A stretch of 64,000 nucleotides of DNA, taken from Pleurocapsa sp. PCC 7319. GTDB taxonomy: Bacteria > Cyanobacteriota > Cyanobacteriia > Cyanobacteriales > Xenococcaceae. The first letter of the stretch is position 1, and each line of letters starts with the position of its first letter. This document shows, one piece after another, positions 11,387 through 62,776 of this stretch. A program made the translations under genes and the position numbers. The notes under the pieces were generated by a model that saw only the letters and a program-made list of their open reading frames with translations, was not told where the DNA came from and did not search any database. The stretch lies in NCBI RefSeq assembly GCF_000332195.1, contig NZ_KB235922.1, forward strand, positions 5,491,322 to 5,555,321, written 5' to 3'.

Positions 11387-11418
11387 AGTAATCAGTAATC
11401 AGTAATCAGTAATCAGTA
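11387..11418. repeat. Heptamer tandem array (AGTAATC)x4, left of yebC
   Basis: Four perfect copies of AGTAATC (11387-11414) plus a partial copy form a short tandemly repeated repetitive (STRR) sequence of the cyanobacterial kind. It is the exact reverse complement of the array just after yebC (12244-12271). Confidence 0.9.
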
Positions 11419-11487
11419 GCCTCGGTGATTATGTCTAACTTGTAAAATAAAAAAAATAGCTTGATCAAAAAGAGGTAAATATAAACC

Positions 11488-12243
11488 GTGGCAGGACATA
11501 GTAAGTGGGCTAATATCAAAAGACAAAAAGCTAGGGTCGATGCCAAAAAAGGTAAAACATTCACCCAATTGTCTCGCGCTATTATTGTCGCTGCCCGCAA
11601 TGGTATTCCCGATCCTGATGGTAATTTTCAACTTCGCACAGCAATTGATAAAGCTAAAGCAGCAGGGATTCCTAATGATAATATTGAGCGATCGCTAGCT
11701 AAAGGGGCAGGAACATATCAAGATGATGATGCCATCCTCGAAGAAATTCGTTATGAAGGATATGGTGCTGGTGGAGTAGCCGTATTAATCGAAGCCCTAA
11801 CCGATAATCGTAATCGCACCGCTGCCTATCTTAGATCTGCATTTACCAAAAACGGGGGCAATCTAGGCGAAACTGGTTGTGTTAGCTGGATGTTTGAGCA
11901 GAAAGGAGTAATCACTTTAGAAAAAGTTGCAGAAGAAGAACTATTAGAAGCTTCTATGGAAGGAGAAGCAGATAACTACGAAATATATGATGATGGAGAT
12001 GTTGCAGAAGTATTTACCGAAGTTGCCAACTTAGAAAACTTGAATCAGACTTTAAAAAAGTACGATTTTTTAATTAGAGACGTAGAACTCCGTTGGATAC
12101 CCAACAATAATATTGAAGTAACTGACCCAGAACAAGCGCGATCGCTCTTAAAACTCATCGATACTTTAGAATCTCTCGACGACGTTCAAAACGTCACTGC
12201 CAACTTTGAAATGACTGAAAAACTGATGGCAACTAGCAGTTAG
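11488..12243 (+). CDS. yebC: YebC/PmpR family protein (TACO1-like)
   Basis: A 251-residue cytosolic protein with the family N-terminus MAGHSKWANIKRQKARVDAK and the typical segments IPNDNIERSLAKG, YEGYGAGGVAVLIE and NGGNLGETGCVSWMF. The family has been described both as DNA-binding regulators and as factors that help ribosomes through proline stretches; the sequence does not decide between these. The start is a GTG at 11488, supported by an AGAGGT ribosome-binding site. The gene is bracketed by matching inverted heptamer arrays. Confidence 0.95.
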   Translation: MAGHSKWANIKRQKARVDAKKGKTFTQLSRAIIVAARNGIPDPDGNFQLRTAIDKAKAAGIPNDNIERSLAKGAGTYQDDDAILEEIRYEGYGAGGVAVLIEALTDNRNRTAAYLRSAFTKNGGNLGETGCVSWMFEQKGVITLEKVAEEELLEASMEGEADNYEIYDDGDVAEVFTEVANLENLNQTLKKYDFLIRDVELRWIPNNNIEVTDPEQARSLLKLIDTLESLDDVQNVTANFEMTEKLMATSS

Positions 12244-12271
12244 TGATTACTGATTACTGATTACTGATTAC
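12244..12271. repeat. Heptamer tandem array (TGATTAC)x4, right of yebC
   Basis: Four perfect TGATTAC copies begin at the base after the yebC stop codon (12241-12243). The array is the reverse complement of the one at 11388-11415. Confidence 0.9.
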
Positions 12272-12282
12272 TCTCGCTTCCA

Positions 12283-20306: not shown

Positions 20307-22679
20307 ATGCCCGATAGAAGTTCAGATCGTTCTACTTATCCCTCCTTAATGAATGGGAATGGAAGTGGAGTTGGTAGTAGTAATGGAAATGAGCAATACA
20401 TTTATTCTTTGCCGGTTGTTAATCAATCCGGAAATGAGGCTGAAGGGGATAGTATCGATTTACGTCAACTCACGAACATTGTTAAACATCGTCTAAGATT
20501 AATCAGTGCTATTGCGATCGGTGCGACAGCGACAGCAGCAATTATTACATTCAACCAAGAACCCAAATATGAAGGTAGTTTTCAGCTTTTGGTTGAGCCA
20601 GTATCGGAAACACAAGAAGATAGTTTGTCTCCTTTATCTATCTTGCAGCAGGATTTCGGCGGTCTAGATTATGATACTCAGATAGAAGTTCTCCGTAGTC
20701 CTAGTGTTCTTAATCCTATAGTCCAGAGTTTAGCTAGTCGATATCCTGAAATTGCATATCACGAGCTAATCAAACCCAAGAAATCTCCGCTACAAATCGA
20801 GCAACTAAACGATACTAAAATAATAGAAGTATCTTACATTGATACTGATCCGCAGAAGATTCAGTTTATCTTAGATACTTTATCAGAAGAATATTTGCGC
20901 TACTCCCTAGAAGAAAAAAGGCGCGAAGTGAAACAAGGTGTTGAGTTTTTGGATAGTCAATTGCCAGAAGCAAGAGCTAGGGTAGATGAACTGCAAGAGC
21001 AAGTACAAAAGTTTCGCCAAAAGCATAATCTGCTTGACCCCGATAAACAGGCATCTTTACTAGCACAACAACAAGTACGCTTTGAAGAACAGTTCTTTGA
21101 TACGCAAGGTAAATTAAAAGAGACTCAATCTTTGTACGCTCTTTTGCAAAATCAATTAGGATTAGAACCACAACAAGCATTAGCTGCTAGCTATTTAAGT
21201 GAGTCTCCTCGTTATCAAAATCTACTTAATGAGCTTCAACAAGTAGAAGTTGAATTGGCCAAAGAATCTGCTCGTTTCTTGCCCGCCAACCCCACTGTAC
21301 AAGCATTAGAAGATAAGAAAGCTAGATTACTGCCACTCTTGAAACAAGAAGCCTCTGGTGTTCTGGGTAATAGTCTATCGGGGACTGTAGATAATACTCC
21401 TGATTTGGCATCTCCTAGTTCTCTACGTTTAGGACTTAACCAACAATACATTCAAGCAACAAACGAGATTGAATTATTAAAAATTCGCGAGCAAGCTCTA
21501 CAAGAAGCAATATCTTATATCGAAGAACTTGTCCAAGAAATGCCCGTAATTGCTCGTCAATATACAGATCTGCAGCGAGAGCTAACAGTAGCCACCGAAA
21601 GCTTGAATCGTTTTTTAACCGCCCAAGAAGAATTGCAACTTCAGGGAGCACAACAGGCCTTACCGTGGCAGACAATTGCTGAGGCCAAGGTGACAGAAGA
21701 TCCTGTATCCCCTAACCCACCTCGTAATCTGATTTTAGGTTTATTTTCTGGTCTCTTATTGGGTGTGGGGACAGCATTATTAGCCGAACGATTAGATCCA
21801 GTATTTCATTCTTCTGAAGAATTGAAAGAGAGCTTTAATTTGCCAATACTTGGTCTGATTCCGGTTCAGAAAGATCTTCAACCTTTAGATGAGATTAAAT
21901 CTGAACCCAAGATAGAAAAAATGGGTCTTCCTCAATTACAAATTGGGAATAATACTCTCAATGTAAATAGTTCTTCCTCTGAAGCTAAATTACCTAGCTC
22001 AAATAGAAAGCATAAATGGTATGGGGCATCACCATTTTTGGAAGCATTTCGTTCCCTTAATACTAATATCAAGCTGCTGGGTTCTGAATCGGCAATGCGC
22101 TCTTTTGTCATCAGTTCTTCTACTCCTTCGGAGGGTAAATCAACTATCTCTTGTCATTTAGCTCAAGCAGCCGCTGCTATGGGTCAAAAGGTGCTTCTGG
22201 TTGATGCTGATTTGCGTCGTCCCCAAGTACATCGATGGATCGGTGTAGAAAATCAAGAGGGTTTAAGTAATATTCTGGCTACTGGATTGGATGTTGAGTC
22301 AGCAATTATTAAAGTTCCACAATGGGAAAATTTATCGGTGATAACTGCCGGTGATATTCCTCCCGATCCTACTCGTCTGCTTGCTTCTCAAAAGATGTAT
22401 TCTCTGATGGATCATCTCAAGGGTATTAGAAAATATGATTTGATCATTTACGATACTCCACCAATTTTAGGGTTTGCTGATGGTCGAATTTTGTCAACAC
22501 GTACTAATGGAGTAGTAATAGTAGTTAGAATTGGTAAAACTGATCGTTCTTTACTCAAACAAAATATTGACAATATTAAAATGTCTAATGTGCCAATTTT
22601 AGGTCTAGTAGCTAATCACGTAAATCGCACTTCAGGCAGCCATAATTACTATAGTCACTATTACGCGGACCGAAAATAG
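20307..22679 (+). CDS. Wzc-like polysaccharide co-polymerase with tyrosine kinase domain
   Basis: An inner-membrane protein of 790 residues. The N-terminal Wzz-type region has a first transmembrane segment near 60-80, then a long periplasmic coiled-coil part and a second transmembrane segment near 475-495. The C-terminal BY-kinase domain shows Walker A SSTPSEGKST, Walker A' LLVDADLRRP and Walker B LIIYDTPP, and ends with a Tyr cluster (NYYSHYY), the usual autophosphorylation site. It controls chain length and export together with the OPX protein upstream. Kinase and membrane parts are fused in one chain, as in proteobacterial Wzc. Confidence 0.93.
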   Translation: MPDRSSDRSTYPSLMNGNGSGVGSSNGNEQYIYSLPVVNQSGNEAEGDSIDLRQLTNIVKHRLRLISAIAIGATATAAIITFNQEPKYEGSFQLLVEPVSETQEDSLSPLSILQQDFGGLDYDTQIEVLRSPSVLNPIVQSLASRYPEIAYHELIKPKKSPLQIEQLNDTKIIEVSYIDTDPQKIQFILDTLSEEYLRYSLEEKRREVKQGVEFLDSQLPEARARVDELQEQVQKFRQKHNLLDPDKQASLLAQQQVRFEEQFFDTQGKLKETQSLYALLQNQLGLEPQQALAASYLSESPRYQNLLNELQQVEVELAKESARFLPANPTVQALEDKKARLLPLLKQEASGVLGNSLSGTVDNTPDLASPSSLRLGLNQQYIQATNEIELLKIREQALQEAISYIEELVQEMPVIARQYTDLQRELTVATESLNRFLTAQEELQLQGAQQALPWQTIAEAKVTEDPVSPNPPRNLILGLFSGLLLGVGTALLAERLDPVFHSSEELKESFNLPILGLIPVQKDLQPLDEIKSEPKIEKMGLPQLQIGNNTLNVNSSSSEAKLPSSNRKHKWYGASPFLEAFRSLNTNIKLLGSESAMRSFVISSSTPSEGKSTISCHLAQAAAAMGQKVLLVDADLRRPQVHRWIGVENQEGLSNILATGLDVESAIIKVPQWENLSVITAGDIPPDPTRLLASQKMYSLMDHLKGIRKYDLIIYDTPPILGFADGRILSTRTNGVVIVVRIGKTDRSLLKQNIDNIKMSNVPILGLVANHVNRTSGSHNYYSHYYADRK

Positions 22680-22720
22680 ACTATATTTTGTAATGTTCTC
22701 TTGATAATTTAATTAATGTA

Positions 22721-23290
22721 GTGGATATACCAATTATTACTTCAACTTTTTTCCTCACCCTGTTAATGATGATTGGGTTGTTCTTCTTCATTCGGGCTTC
22801 AGTCAAAGACCGAACGACACAAATTCGCTTAATTCCTTCTGAGTCAGAGGATATTCTGCTCAAAAAACTGCAGTCGTATTTTGAAGCTCGAGCTTATCAA
22901 CTAGTTGCTGTGGATGCAGACAAGCAAAAAATAACATTTAGGGGATTTGTGCAACCTAGTCTATTTTTAGCTATTCTTCTCAGCTTTTTAGCAGGAGTTG
23001 GCTTATCTTGTTTAGCTTTAGTTTTGTTGCTGTTATTTCCTAATCCTAATCTTGATAATGTTTTCTGGCTTTTAGTTTTATTAGCACCTCTAGCTGGTAT
23101 ATTTTATTGGCGCAAAGCAGGGCGTTGGGAAGAAATACTACTTCAGGTCATATCTAACCAAAGCGATTACCCGCAGGGCTTGCACTCGAATGGGTGTACG
23201 CTTCGCGATCGCAACTTAATCGGTGTAACTGCCCATAGAGATGAGCTGATTCAACTACAAGCAAATTTGTCTGTACAAACAGCAGAATGA
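22721..23290 (+). CDS. CCB2/CCB4-like cofactor assembly protein for cytochrome b6
   Basis: A 189-residue membrane protein that matches, from memory, the cyanobacterial and plastid CCB2/CCB4 family, needed to attach heme c(i) to cytochrome b6. One N-terminal transmembrane segment (TSTFFLTLLMMIGLFFFI) is followed by a soluble stretch, two further transmembrane segments (about 85-110 and 115-130) and a C-terminal tail with GVTAHRDELIQLQ. The start is a GTG at 22721, 41 bases after the kinase stop. Odd: residues about 148-164 are encoded by a dispersed DNA repeat, giving an in-frame insertion just before the conserved tail. Confidence 0.75.
   Translation: MDIPIITSTFFLTLLMMIGLFFFIRASVKDRTTQIRLIPSESEDILLKKLQSYFEARAYQLVAVDADKQKITFRGFVQPSLFLAILLSFLAGVGLSCLALVLLLLFPNPNLDNVFWLLVLLAPLAGIFYWRKAGRWEEILLQVISNQSDYPQGLHSNGCTLRDRNLIGVTAHRDELIQLQANLSVQTAE
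23163..23212. repeat. Small dispersed repeat inserted in frame in the CCB gene
   Basis: Positions 23163-23209 are identical over 47 bases to the reverse complement of 38477-38523. The unit starts with GCGATTACCCGCAGGG and ends here in a HIP1 palindrome (GCGATCGC, 23205-23212). Its middle can fold into an imperfect 10-bp stem with a GAAT loop. It belongs to the class of small dispersed repeats known from cyanobacteria. Confidence 0.9.
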
Positions 23291-23333
23291 GACTCTGAAA
23301 CCAATTAGAAATAAAGACTTACTTAGATACATT

Positions 23334-23365
23334 AAAAATGGGGATAACTATAGTTGCCATCCCCA
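23334..23365 (-). terminator. Terminator-like hairpin between CCB gene and DUF3155 gene
   Basis: TGGGGAT (23339-23345) pairs with ATCCCCA (23359-23365); a small inner AACT/AGTT stem lies in the loop. Read on the minus strand the hairpin is followed by five U (23338-23334), so it should end the DUF3155 transcript. It may also slow the converging transcript. Confidence 0.65.
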
Positions 23366-23420
23366 AAATTTCCTTGATATTAGGTTGTATTCTGCTGATT
23401 ACTACCTTATGGTTAAACTT

Positions 23421-38082: not shown

Positions 38083-38436
38083 ATGGCTCAAATGTTACCA
38101 GAAACTAATTATAGAGAATTATTATTATGGATATTTCGTTGTAGAAAACGGTTGAAAGTAATAGGGAAATCGATGCTTCCTTTGTTAGAGCCAGGAACAG
38201 AAATATTAATTAATCCCAATGCATACCAAAAATTAATGCCAAAAATTGGTGATATTATCGTTACAACTCATCCCTATCATCCAGAACTTAGTATTGTTAA
38301 AAGAATTACAGCAATAAATAAAGATGGAAGTTACTTTTTAACAGGGGATAACCTCACTGAAAGTACCGATAGTCGTCATTGGGGCAGTATAAAACTGGAA
38401 GATATTATTGGTCAGGTAACAAGTAGTTTTAACTGA
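38083..38436 (+). CDS. S26-family signal-peptidase-like protease (SodX-like)
   Basis: A 117-residue peptidase of the S24/S26 clan. The catalytic Ser is in VIGKSMLPLLEPG (about residue 29) and the general-base Lys in LSIVKRI (about residue 70); GDNLTESTDSRHWG matches the C-terminal box. There is no membrane anchor, as in the small proteases that mature nickel superoxide dismutase (SodX). No sodN gene is next to it in this window, so the substrate remains open. ATG start at 38083. Confidence 0.75.
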   Translation: MAQMLPETNYRELLLWIFRCRKRLKVIGKSMLPLLEPGTEILINPNAYQKLMPKIGDIIVTTHPYHPELSIVKRITAINKDGSYFLTGDNLTESTDSRHWGSIKLEDIIGQVTSSFN

Positions 38437-38449
38437 AAATAGTAATAAT

Positions 38450-38558
38450 GCGATCGCTATAGCGGTGGCGAAGCCAATCGCGAAGCGTACACCCATTCGA
38501 GTGCAAGCCCTGCGGGTAATCGCCTCTGGCGGTGGGCGGAGCGCAATCGCTCTGAAGA
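38450..38558. repeat. Composite small dispersed repeat with HIP1 ends
   Basis: This GC-rich block in an AT-rich gap starts with GCGATCGC. It contains the 47-base unit (38477-38523) identical to the reverse complement of 23163-23209, and carries further short GC-rich palindromic pieces (GCGGTGGCG, GGCGGTGGGCGG). Confidence 0.85.
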
Positions 38559-38665
38559 TTTAAATAGATGGGTCAATATTTTAAGGGATAGCCATCAAAA
38601 CGATTGACTTTGTCTGGGAAAGAGTGAAAGGCTCGCGGGGTGACAAGCTAATTAAAAGTGTTACA

Positions 38666-56501: not shown

Positions 56502-57116
56502 ATGGATTACAAAAACAAAATTTTAGACGAAATTGAGACTATTTCCGAATCATTGTTGCCTGAGGTGTTAAATTTTATCCAATCCCTCAAATCGAAATCG
56601 ACGGACGCTCCCAAGACAAATCTGGTTAGCAACTCGCAATTATCCCATCCTAAGGAAGAAGTGATTATCTATACAGATGGTGCTTGCACTGGCAATCCTG
56701 GTGCGGGGGGATATGGTGCAGTACTCATCTTTGGAGATCGACGACAGGAAATTTCTGGTGGGTATCAACTCACTACCAATAATCGCATGGAAATGATGGG
56801 AGCGATCACTGCCTTAAAATCCTTGGAACATAAGTCCAAGGTAAAACTTCACAGCGACTCTAAGTATATTGTCGATGCCATAGTCAAAGGCTGGGCTAAA
56901 AAATGGCAAGCCAACGGTTGGAAAAGAAATAAAAAAGAAATGGCTAAAAATCCCGATCTGTGGCAACAATTACTAGAACTCTGTCAAATCCACGATGTTG
57001 AATTTGTTTGGGTAAAAGGTCATGCCGGAATCCCCGAAAATGAAAGATGCGATCGCCTTGCTGTTAGTGCAGCACAACAGGGAAACTTAGCAACAGATCA
57101 AGGATATATTAGCTAA
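56502..57116 (+). CDS. rnhA: Ribonuclease HI with unusual N-terminal extension
   Basis: Degrades the RNA strand of RNA-DNA hybrids. The RNase H domain (about residues 52-195) keeps all catalytic acids: Asp59 in IYTDGACTGNPG, the Glu in NRMEMMGAI, the Asp in LHSDSKYIVD and the Asp in NERCDRLA. The first 50 residues (NKILDEIETISESLLPEVLNF) are not part of a standard RNase HI and resemble the DUF2281/VapB-like helix often found in antitoxins. ATG at 56502; a TTG two codons earlier is also in frame. A nine-copy heptamer array follows the stop. Confidence 0.92.
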   Translation: MDYKNKILDEIETISESLLPEVLNFIQSLKSKSTDAPKTNLVSNSQLSHPKEEVIIYTDGACTGNPGAGGYGAVLIFGDRRQEISGGYQLTTNNRMEMMGAITALKSLEHKSKVKLHSDSKYIVDAIVKGWAKKWQANGWKRNKKEMAKNPDLWQQLLELCQIHDVEFVWVKGHAGIPENERCDRLAVSAAQQGNLATDQGYIS

Positions 57117-57124
57117 GGCTCTAC

Positions 57125-57190
57125 TGATTACTGATTACTGATTACTGATTACTGATTACTGATTACTGATTACTGATTACTGATTACTGA
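57125..57190. repeat. Heptamer array (TGATTAC)x9 overlapping a gene end
   Basis: Nine perfect TGATTAC copies (57125-57187) plus TGA lie between the convergent rnhA and DUF2854 genes. The right end (57170-57190) lies inside the DUF2854 gene and encodes its last residues and stop codon. Confidence 0.95.
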
Positions 57191-57721
57191 CTTTAAGGCC
57201 AAGTCAATTTTAGATTTTTGAGGTTGGGTAATTTCAGCAATTATGTCGGGGCCAAAAAACTTCTCAATTTTTTCTCGTCTTTCTTGCCATTGTTCTAGGG
57301 AGAAAAATGGTGAATCAAATTCCATCAATAAAGTGTAAGCACCATCTCTAGATTGCTCTTGAATACCAACTAACTCTGGTCTGTCTGCATCTGAAGGACT
57401 TAAACCTAATTTCTCTAAGGATTCGTCTAAATGTGCTTCCTGTCCATAGCGATAGCGAGTCACATCTTTCCGTAACTGTTCTTGGGTTGGAGTAGCCTGC
57501 GATCGCAGTTTTTCAACTTCAGGAGTAGTTTCAGTAGTATAAGGTACTGGCTTTAATTCGGCAGCCTTGAGAGCCAAACCACCTAATAACAAAGGAATTC
57601 CATAAAAGAAACCCGCTAAATTAAGAGTGTTCATGCCGACAGCATAGGCATAAAAACCAACAGCAGTTAGAATTCCTCCAACAGTTAAGCCTACAGCCGC
57701 CAATGGTATTTTACGCAACAT
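57170..57721 (-). CDS. DUF2854 family membrane protein
   Basis: A 183-residue protein with two N-terminal transmembrane segments (AVGLTVGGILTAVGFYAYAVG and LAGFFYGIPLLLGGLAL) and a soluble C-terminal part with a conserved segment (DVTRYRYGQEAHLDESLEKLGL). It matches, from memory, DUF2854, present in cyanobacteria and plants; the function is unknown and a thylakoid location is likely. Odd: its last six residues (SVISNQ) and stop codon are encoded by a heptamer tandem array, so its C-terminus can change when the array slips. ATG at 57721. Confidence 0.8.
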   Translation of the reverse strand: MLRKIPLAAVGLTVGGILTAVGFYAYAVGMNTLNLAGFFYGIPLLLGGLALKAAELKPVPYTTETTPEVEKLRSQATPTQEQLRKDVTRYRYGQEAHLDESLEKLGLSPSDADRPELVGIQEQSRDGAYTLLMEFDSPFFSLEQWQERREKIEKFFGPDIIAEITQPQKSKIDLALKSVISNQ

Positions 57722-61549: not shown

Positions 61550-62776
61550 ATGGTCAATCAGCAAGCAAACAGTACTCAAGATATTGGTTTCACTCACGAA
61601 GATTTCGCAGCTCTCCTTGATAAATATGACTATCACTTCAGTCCTGGGGATATAGTAGCGGGAACAGTTTTTAGTATGGAACCAAGGGGAGCTCTGATTG
61701 ACATTGGTGCTAAAACAGCTGCTTATATTCCGATTCAGGAAATGTCAATTAACCGCGTTGACAACCCTAGCGAAGTACTTCAAGCAGATGAAACCAGAGA
61801 GTTTTTCATTTTAACTGATGAAAATGAAGATGGACAGCTAACCCTTTCTATAAGACGTATTGAGTATATGCGTGCCTGGGAACGGGTTAGACAACTACAG
61901 CAAGAAGATGCCACGGTGCGCTCCAATGTATTTGCCACTAATCGTGGTGGTGCGTTAGTTAGAATTGAAGGGTTAAGAGGCTTTATTCCTGGTTCTCACA
62001 TCAGCGCGAGGGAAACCAAAGAAGATTTAGTAGGGGAAGATTTACCACTCAAATTTTTAGAAGTAGATGAAGAACGTAATCGATTAGTTCTTAGTCATCG
62101 TCGAGCCTTAGTAGAGCGTAAGATGAATGGCTTAGAAGTAGGTCAGGTCGTCAAAGGTTCTGTGCGTGGTATCAAGCCTTATGGTGCATTTATTGACATT
62201 GGTGGGGTTAGCGGATTACTTCATATTTCCGAGATATCTCACGATCATATCGATACTCCCCACAGCGTATTTGGTGTGAATGATGAGCTAAAAGTAATGA
62301 TTATCGACCTAGATGCCGAAAGAGGTCGTATATCTCTTTCCACTAAGCAGCTAGAGCCAGAACCTGGTGATATGCTCAAAAATAGAGAGATAGTATTTGA
62401 AAAAGCCGAAGAAATGGCTGAAAAGTATCGCCAGAAACTATTGGCTGAAGCGGAAGGAATTACTCTAGAAGAAGAGATTCCCTCAGCATCGGAAGAGCCT
62501 GTTGTAGCAGAAGATGCCGAGGAGACAGTAGTAAATGAGACTACAGATACAGAAGATGTAGAGGAAACAGTAGACGAAACTACAGAGGAAACAGTAGACG
62601 AAACTACAGAGGAAACAGTAGACGAAACTACAGAGGAAACAGTAGACGAAACTACAGAGGAAACAGTAGACGAAACTACAGAGGAAACAGTAGACGAAAC
62701 TACAGAGGAAACAGTAGCAGTGGATTCTACCGAAGATTCTGAAGGAGAGATGGTAGGTGCTGCGGCAGAAGAATAA
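61550..62776 (+). CDS. rpsA: 30S ribosomal protein S1 with repetitive acidic tail
   Basis: An mRNA-binding ribosomal protein with three S1 (OB-fold) domains at about residues 33-100, 118-184 and 197-267 (GDIVAGTVFSMEPRGALIDIGAK; EGLRGFIPGSHIS; GQVVKGSVRGIKPYGAFIDIGG). Three domains is the cyanobacterial and plastid form. At 408 residues it is roughly 80-100 longer than usual because of an acidic C-terminal tail holding six perfect ETVDETTE repeats (residues 339-386). The repeats are identical in DNA too, so the tail length may vary between strains. ATG at 61550; a terminator follows. Confidence 0.95.
   Translation: MVNQQANSTQDIGFTHEDFAALLDKYDYHFSPGDIVAGTVFSMEPRGALIDIGAKTAAYIPIQEMSINRVDNPSEVLQADETREFFILTDENEDGQLTLSIRRIEYMRAWERVRQLQQEDATVRSNVFATNRGGALVRIEGLRGFIPGSHISARETKEDLVGEDLPLKFLEVDEERNRLVLSHRRALVERKMNGLEVGQVVKGSVRGIKPYGAFIDIGGVSGLLHISEISHDHIDTPHSVFGVNDELKVMIIDLDAERGRISLSTKQLEPEPGDMLKNREIVFEKAEEMAEKYRQKLLAEAEGITLEEEIPSASEEPVVAEDAEETVVNETTDTEDVEETVDETTEETVDETTEETVDETTEETVDETTEETVDETTEETVDETTEETVAVDSTEDSEGEMVGAAAEE
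62564..62716 (+). repeat. Perfect 24-bp tandem repeat x6 in rpsA
   Basis: Six identical 24-base units (62564-62707) plus a partial unit encode ETVDETTE. A degenerate older copy (ETVVNETTD) lies upstream at about 62522. The identity at synonymous positions points to recent slippage expansion. Confidence 0.97.

Follow-up and report, generated by a model that had tools for sequence, protein, structure and literature searches.

Within the window, i.e. the 64,000-nucleotide stretch of DNA from Pleurocapsa sp. PCC 7319 analysed here (source genome of 7.39 Mb in 10 contigs), a conserved gene contains a short block that recurs between two other genes. This raises the question of what the block is and how it came to lie within a protein-coding sequence. 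The original prediction described it as a 47-base dispersed repeat inserted into a CCB2/CCB4-like gene. The match was confirmed, as 23163–23209 is the exact reverse complement of 38477–38523. The 50-mer versions of the two copies differ at two positions, and 100 shuffles gave no match. The name of the gene had to be corrected. The ORF at 22721–23290 (+ strand, 189 aa including the insert) matched PF12046 in Pfam with 210.9 bits (cut-off 25, E 1e-62) over positions 2–167 of 168, i.e. the whole model, and is CCB1 (cofactor assembly of complex C subunit B). An identity as CCB2/CCB4 was therefore rejected. A single-sequence AlphaFold model of the protein had a mean pLDDT of 56.8 and values below 50 across residues 136–189. 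Against Rfam, the region 22600–23400 gave nothing but a sub-threshold snoRNA match (E 0.47).

The size of the insert was derived from its flanks. The locus reads ...AACCAA A GCGAT (TACCCGCAGGGCTTGCACTCGAATGGGTGTACGCTTCGCGAT) CGC AACTTAATC..., and excision of the 42 bp in brackets (23168–23209, + strand) leaves GCGATCGC, which is the HIP1 octamer, in frame and coding for S-D-R. Many cyanobacterial genomes are rich in HIP1, whose role is still unsettled. The octamer is split by the module at 23163–23212 (+ strand), with a left GCGAT at 23163–23167 and a right GCGATCGC at 23205–23212; the target can be written as GCGAT|CGC or, equivalently, as GCG|ATCGC. As the S-D and R codons at the two ends (AGC GAT ... 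CGC) are those of the HIP1 target, the inserted unit comprises 42 bp or 14 residues (YPQGLHSNGCTLRD) and not the 16–17 residues initially proposed, and a unit of 47–50 bp was rejected as well. The reading frame of the ORF is preserved across the insert. We consider it highly probable that the 42-bp block belongs to an SDR5-like system, in which mobile repeats of very small size insert into HIP1.

CCB1 was present in all 27 genomes of the family. When the protein was aligned with the 26 others, none of them contained the inserted peptide, so that the proposed gain of protein sequence by an in-frame repeat was upheld. The corresponding loop is exactly 14 residues shorter in the closest relatives (G018, G019 and G020), and its length is variable over the family. 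The 47 identical base pairs of the two copies might also be explained if the block were ordinary CCB1 coding sequence from which the intergenic copy was derived. This is contradicted by the missing peptide in 26 out of 26 relatives, and the module is found elsewhere in the genome adjoining other HIP1-bounded modules; such an origin is practically untenable. As to insertion into HIP1, the octamer is intact in the CCB1 loop of G014 and G016 (AGCGATCGC), while in G017 it is split in frame by another module, which is 24 bp long and lies in reverse orientation (GCGATTTCCCTCTGGGAAAGCTTCGCGATCGC when read on the opposite strand). Thus, the same CCB1 loop was struck twice, once by the 24-bp module of G017 and once by the 42-bp module of the window. 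The empty site of the window is reconstructed from its flanks, as the nearest relatives have no HIP1 in this loop and the HIP1 of G016 and G017 is offset from it by one codon in an ungapped alignment; insertion at the identical base is not claimed. The 42-bp unit would have landed in a length-variable loop directly before the conserved C-terminal stretch. Judged from the sequences, the insert is most likely tolerated as a frame-neutral addition without benefit, since the loop is variable in length and the insert is not retained in relatives.

The second copy of the repeat (38477–38523) lies in an intergenic HIP1 that contains three tandem modules of 27 + 42 + 24 bp when read on the − strand (38450–38550). 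In the reverse complement of 38431–38570, GCGAT is accordingly found at positions 20, 47, 89 and 113. A search of the source genome with up to 3 mismatches yielded four copies of a 41-base stretch and eleven of the 23-base core. The 42-bp unit corresponds to the 24-bp type (GCGATTACCCGCAGGGTACGCTTCGCGATCGC) with 18 additional bases, CTTGCACTCGAATGGGTG, in the middle. These 18 nt (23179–23196, + strand) set the two types apart and form the inner hairpin of the + strand fold. On folding of the 50-mer, z was −2.9 for the + strand and 0.28 for the other strand. Out of six strands folded, the former was the only one that stood out (0.28 to −1.65 for the rest). Folding alone is weak evidence for the modules.

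Over 21–23 bases the core is also identical in G014, G023 and G026, so that identity alone cannot date the CCB1 insertion, for which a recent origin or maintenance by conversion had been proposed. One and the same reading frame of the core is used in three genes from three genomes, namely, CCB1 of the window, an HTH protein of G017 and a SnoaL-like protein of G014. Between the GGC codon and the right HIP1, the copies of G017 and of the window differ at four positions, all of them synonymous by inspection. Both findings would be compatible with a co-option of the insert as coding sequence and with selection for the core peptide GLHSNGC. However, the synonymous pattern stems from one pair of copies. 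Three more codons differ between them immediately upstream, and two of these are non-synonymous (Y to R, Q to L). The copy of G014 diverges after the core (NLAD versus TLRD), copies outside genes keep the core equally well, in a further gene, for a WD40 protein, it is the opposite strand of the copy that is translated and, as mentioned above, no relative has retained the insert in CCB1. Selection on the peptide is therefore regarded as very improbable.

Reading between nearby GCGAT words in 800 kb of the source genome revealed modules of 24, 27 and 42 bp which are bounded by HIP1 and occur singly or in tandem. With a fixed-length search pattern, the HIP1-bounded 24-bp type was detected in 24 of 100 genomes including the source genome (118 places), and the reversed-pattern control gave 0. 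Its distribution is patchy: 9 of 13 genomes in the genus have it, none of the 14 from the remaining genera of the family and 15 of 73 outside the family. A sample drawn from across the class contained it in 17 of 242 genomes (reversed-pattern control 0), and some of the sequences matched there have no stem, e.g. in G142, G176, G187, G121 and G260. The 27-bp type gave 64 matches in the source genome and none in the control. A pattern scan of genome contigs produced two hits, one of which, in a Flavobacteriales record, was set aside as chance as the stretch displayed contains no HIP1.

A search for hairpin and right boundary in 1.6 Mb of three genomes returned 33 hits as compared to 0 in the control. 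A length of 24 was found for twelve of them and of 27 for thirteen, and 29 of the 33 lengths are multiples of three. Three of the four exceptions are intergenic and one is located within an ORF; the latter looks like chance, as do hits of 54 and 60 long. A looser hairpin scan of 800 kb gave 31 hits versus 2 in the control. The 37 GCGAT pairs spaced at 24 include 20 from an unrelated tandem array and 10 modules, and modules account by reading for 9 of 19 pairs at 27 and for 5 of 15 at 42; this spectrum by itself is weak evidence for modules. k-mer surveys were discarded and returned chiefly heptamer tandem repeats and HIP1 itself. Heptamer repeats of the TGATTAC type are present in the window at 11387–11419, 12227–12274 and 57108–57197, and a tandem repeat with a periodicity of 12/24 bases (AGAGGAAACAGTAGACGAAACTAC) is present at 62536–62751. 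The CCB1 insert was read from a single assembly, which would allow for an assembly or sequencing artefact. Many loci in several genomes following one rule and pattern controls of 0 render this next to impossible.

Among the 73 distinct sequences of the 100-genome survey, 93% of the cells in the stems of the 24-bp type were paired, with G-U counted. In 2000 shuffles of the 3' arm, by which relatedness among the sequences is not preserved, the mean was 57% and the maximum 66%, and sliding gave 41–49%. This covariation covers the 24-bp relatives, as the 42-bp unit has too few variants. The units of 27 bp form two hairpins. The hairpin shape would also suit a spread of the modules by a known transposase of the REP/RAYT or MITE type instead of a HIP1-specific route of their own, and a REPIN paper suggests that its approach might be of use in tracing the origin of SDRs. 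In addition, 12 of the 64 27-bp matches in the source genome lie in copies of one IS630-like element, and hitchhiking thus occurs. On the other hand, the sites that were read are HIP1 octamers and to our knowledge HIP1 is not a described target of either type of element. Hitchhiking in one IS also leaves the dispersed sites unexplained, and we consider a known transposase to be unlikely as the cause. In the IS630-like element of the source genome, the module is situated in the transposase region (L264, L265, L268, L270, L276, L284, L288, L330, L333, L335, L340 and L070). Beyond this module, the four copies read all have a broken reading frame; thus, the element gives no evidence that an enzyme containing the insert is functional, and it may be moved in trans.

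For the SDR5-like system, the modules show a precise split of HIP1, GCGAT at both edges (24 and 42 bp) and mainly lengths of 24, 27 and 42, all of which are multiples of three. Candidate routes by which units might be copied into the HIP1 octamer are recombination at this site, a hairpin nuclease or an RNA intermediate. Six modules were checked for stops, and each of them had 5 or all 6 frames open. HIP1 itself lies mostly in genes, with 599 of 699 octamers in ORFs of at least 100 codons (800 kb), and frame-neutral units which are free of stops in five or six frames could hence survive as short added peptides.

It had been assumed that such repeats usually lie between genes, with CCB1 as an exception. 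This did not hold, as 70 of 143 distinct modules of 24 and 27 bp are located within ORFs, for which a minimum of 120 codons and a margin of 15 or more residues on each side of the module were required (50 of 90 and 20 of 53, respectively). With these limits raised to 200 codons and 30 residues, the number was 50 of 143. The 143 modules are those fetched from several genomes, and the ORF calls are mechanical. The 90 modules of 24 bp were counted as distinct by their flanks, and three of them lie in repeats of one ORF (L356), while 11 of the 64 copies of the 27-bp type were merged on account of flanks in common with a copy of an IS630-like element. At L356 (G016:C180), the same 24-bp module occurs in several repeats of one 622-aa ORF and seems to have been amplified together with the protein repeat. 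Compared with HIP1 itself, modules are probably thinned out of genes, yet common there, although the samples and rules of the two counts differ. The CCB1 insertion is ordinary for its genome, and the notable feature is the number of in-frame gene inserts. The interpretation given in the original prediction is partly supported.

Filled and empty sites were also compared in other genes. An SNF2-type gene (Helicase_C and SNF2-rel_dom in Pfam) has the layout GGCGAT(27 bp)CGTTCTGG. Its insert is missing in 12 of 12 members of the genus, nine of which have GCGATCGC at exactly this position; the other three are one or two bases off. In a CoA-ligase-like gene, 9 residues are missing in 24 of 24 aligned relatives, and at least 6 of these have HIP1 there, a lower bound as the pattern search can miss some. 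This alignment does not include G017, in which the frame is broken, or G004, which gave no match. The largest insert is an in-frame array of eight modules (219 bp) in a conserved protein with a below-cut-off match to a glycosyl hydrolase. It is missing in all ten relatives that have both flanks. No HIP1 was found at the junction in the nine relatives read, and the octamer is therefore reconstructed from the flanks of the array. The SnoaL-like gene of G014 (below cut-off) consists of two parts which are contiguous in G016 and split in G014 by an extra stretch; this stretch is not a canonical module and its right edge is not HIP1.

Further in-gene modules of the source genome are found in an HlyD-like protein, in the C-terminus of RelA/SpoT and, as a stack of three, in a WD40 protein. 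Elsewhere, modules lie in a glycosyltransferase of G014 and in the NAD synthase of G063 (Pfam assignment of the G063 copy), with a like insert in G035. The HIP1 module of 8 residues occupies an identical position of NAD synthase in both species (L092 and L198), which suggests vertical retention. With regard to a possible restriction of stacking to HIP1-recreating modules, left neighbours were present for 7 of 90 modules of 24 bp, for 2 of 7 HIP1-recreating modules of 27 bp and for 2 of 46 other 27-bp modules. As a tentative and rather doubtful generalisation, some cyanobacterial lineages might possess protein-editing mini-repeats. HIP1 would then provide the receptor sites, modules would add 8, 9 or 14 residues (up to 73 in arrays), those ending in GCGATCGC would recreate HIP1 and permit stacking, and frame neutrality would be a property of the element under selection.

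SDR5 is said to have been described by Elhai et al. in 2008, in Genome Res 18:1484, as a small dispersed repeat of Nostoc that forms a hairpin with compensatory changes. SDR units are 21–27 nt long. The 42-bp unit of the window is outside this range, and the same genome also has units of 24 and 27 bp. Given this length, the system is named SDR5-like and not SDR5; it is likened to SDR5 by insertion rule, hairpin and very small size and not by sequence. A hairpin with compensatory changes was found for the 24-bp relatives. Insertion within HIP1 was observed in the SNF2-type gene and in CCB1 of G017 in comparison with G014 and G016, whereas the HIP1 of the window is reconstructed from its flanks. 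As the edge bases repeat, the cut point can be placed only to within a few bases. According to a previous study, SDR5 inserts precisely within HIP1, between bases 3 and 4, and directed cutting at HIP1 could partly account for this precision (PMC4390886).

In-frame gene inserts of the SDR5/HIP1 kind were not reported in the literature found on SDR5, Nostoc dispersed repeats, HIP1, cyanobacterial small dispersed repeats and in-frame insertion, which was available in part and did not include the SDR5 description of 2008. Within the same sources, insertion of SDR5 in HIP1 and in-frame insertion of repeats in protein genes (Rickettsia) are already known. REP/REPIN sequences and bacterial MITEs are likewise short dispersed repeats with hairpin potential (PMC3116915, PMC3733652, PMC2229807). 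They differ in that the sections consulted describe no HIP1 target rule for them; MITEs are, in addition, of larger size and bounded by terminal inverted repeats. For annotation, peptides such as that in CCB1 should be treated as inserts and not as domains. With filled and empty orthologous sites, it becomes possible to study the movement of the smallest mobile repeats and the frequency at which they alter proteins. The modules resemble the Rickettsia palindromic elements (RPE; Ogata et al. 2000), which according to PMC2229807 are present between genes and, in frame, within conserved protein-coding genes. RPEs are Rickettsia-specific palindromes of 105–146 bp, whereas the modules have 24–42 bp and a fixed HIP1 target. 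With this octamer, unlike with the Rickettsia elements, every potential site can be counted.
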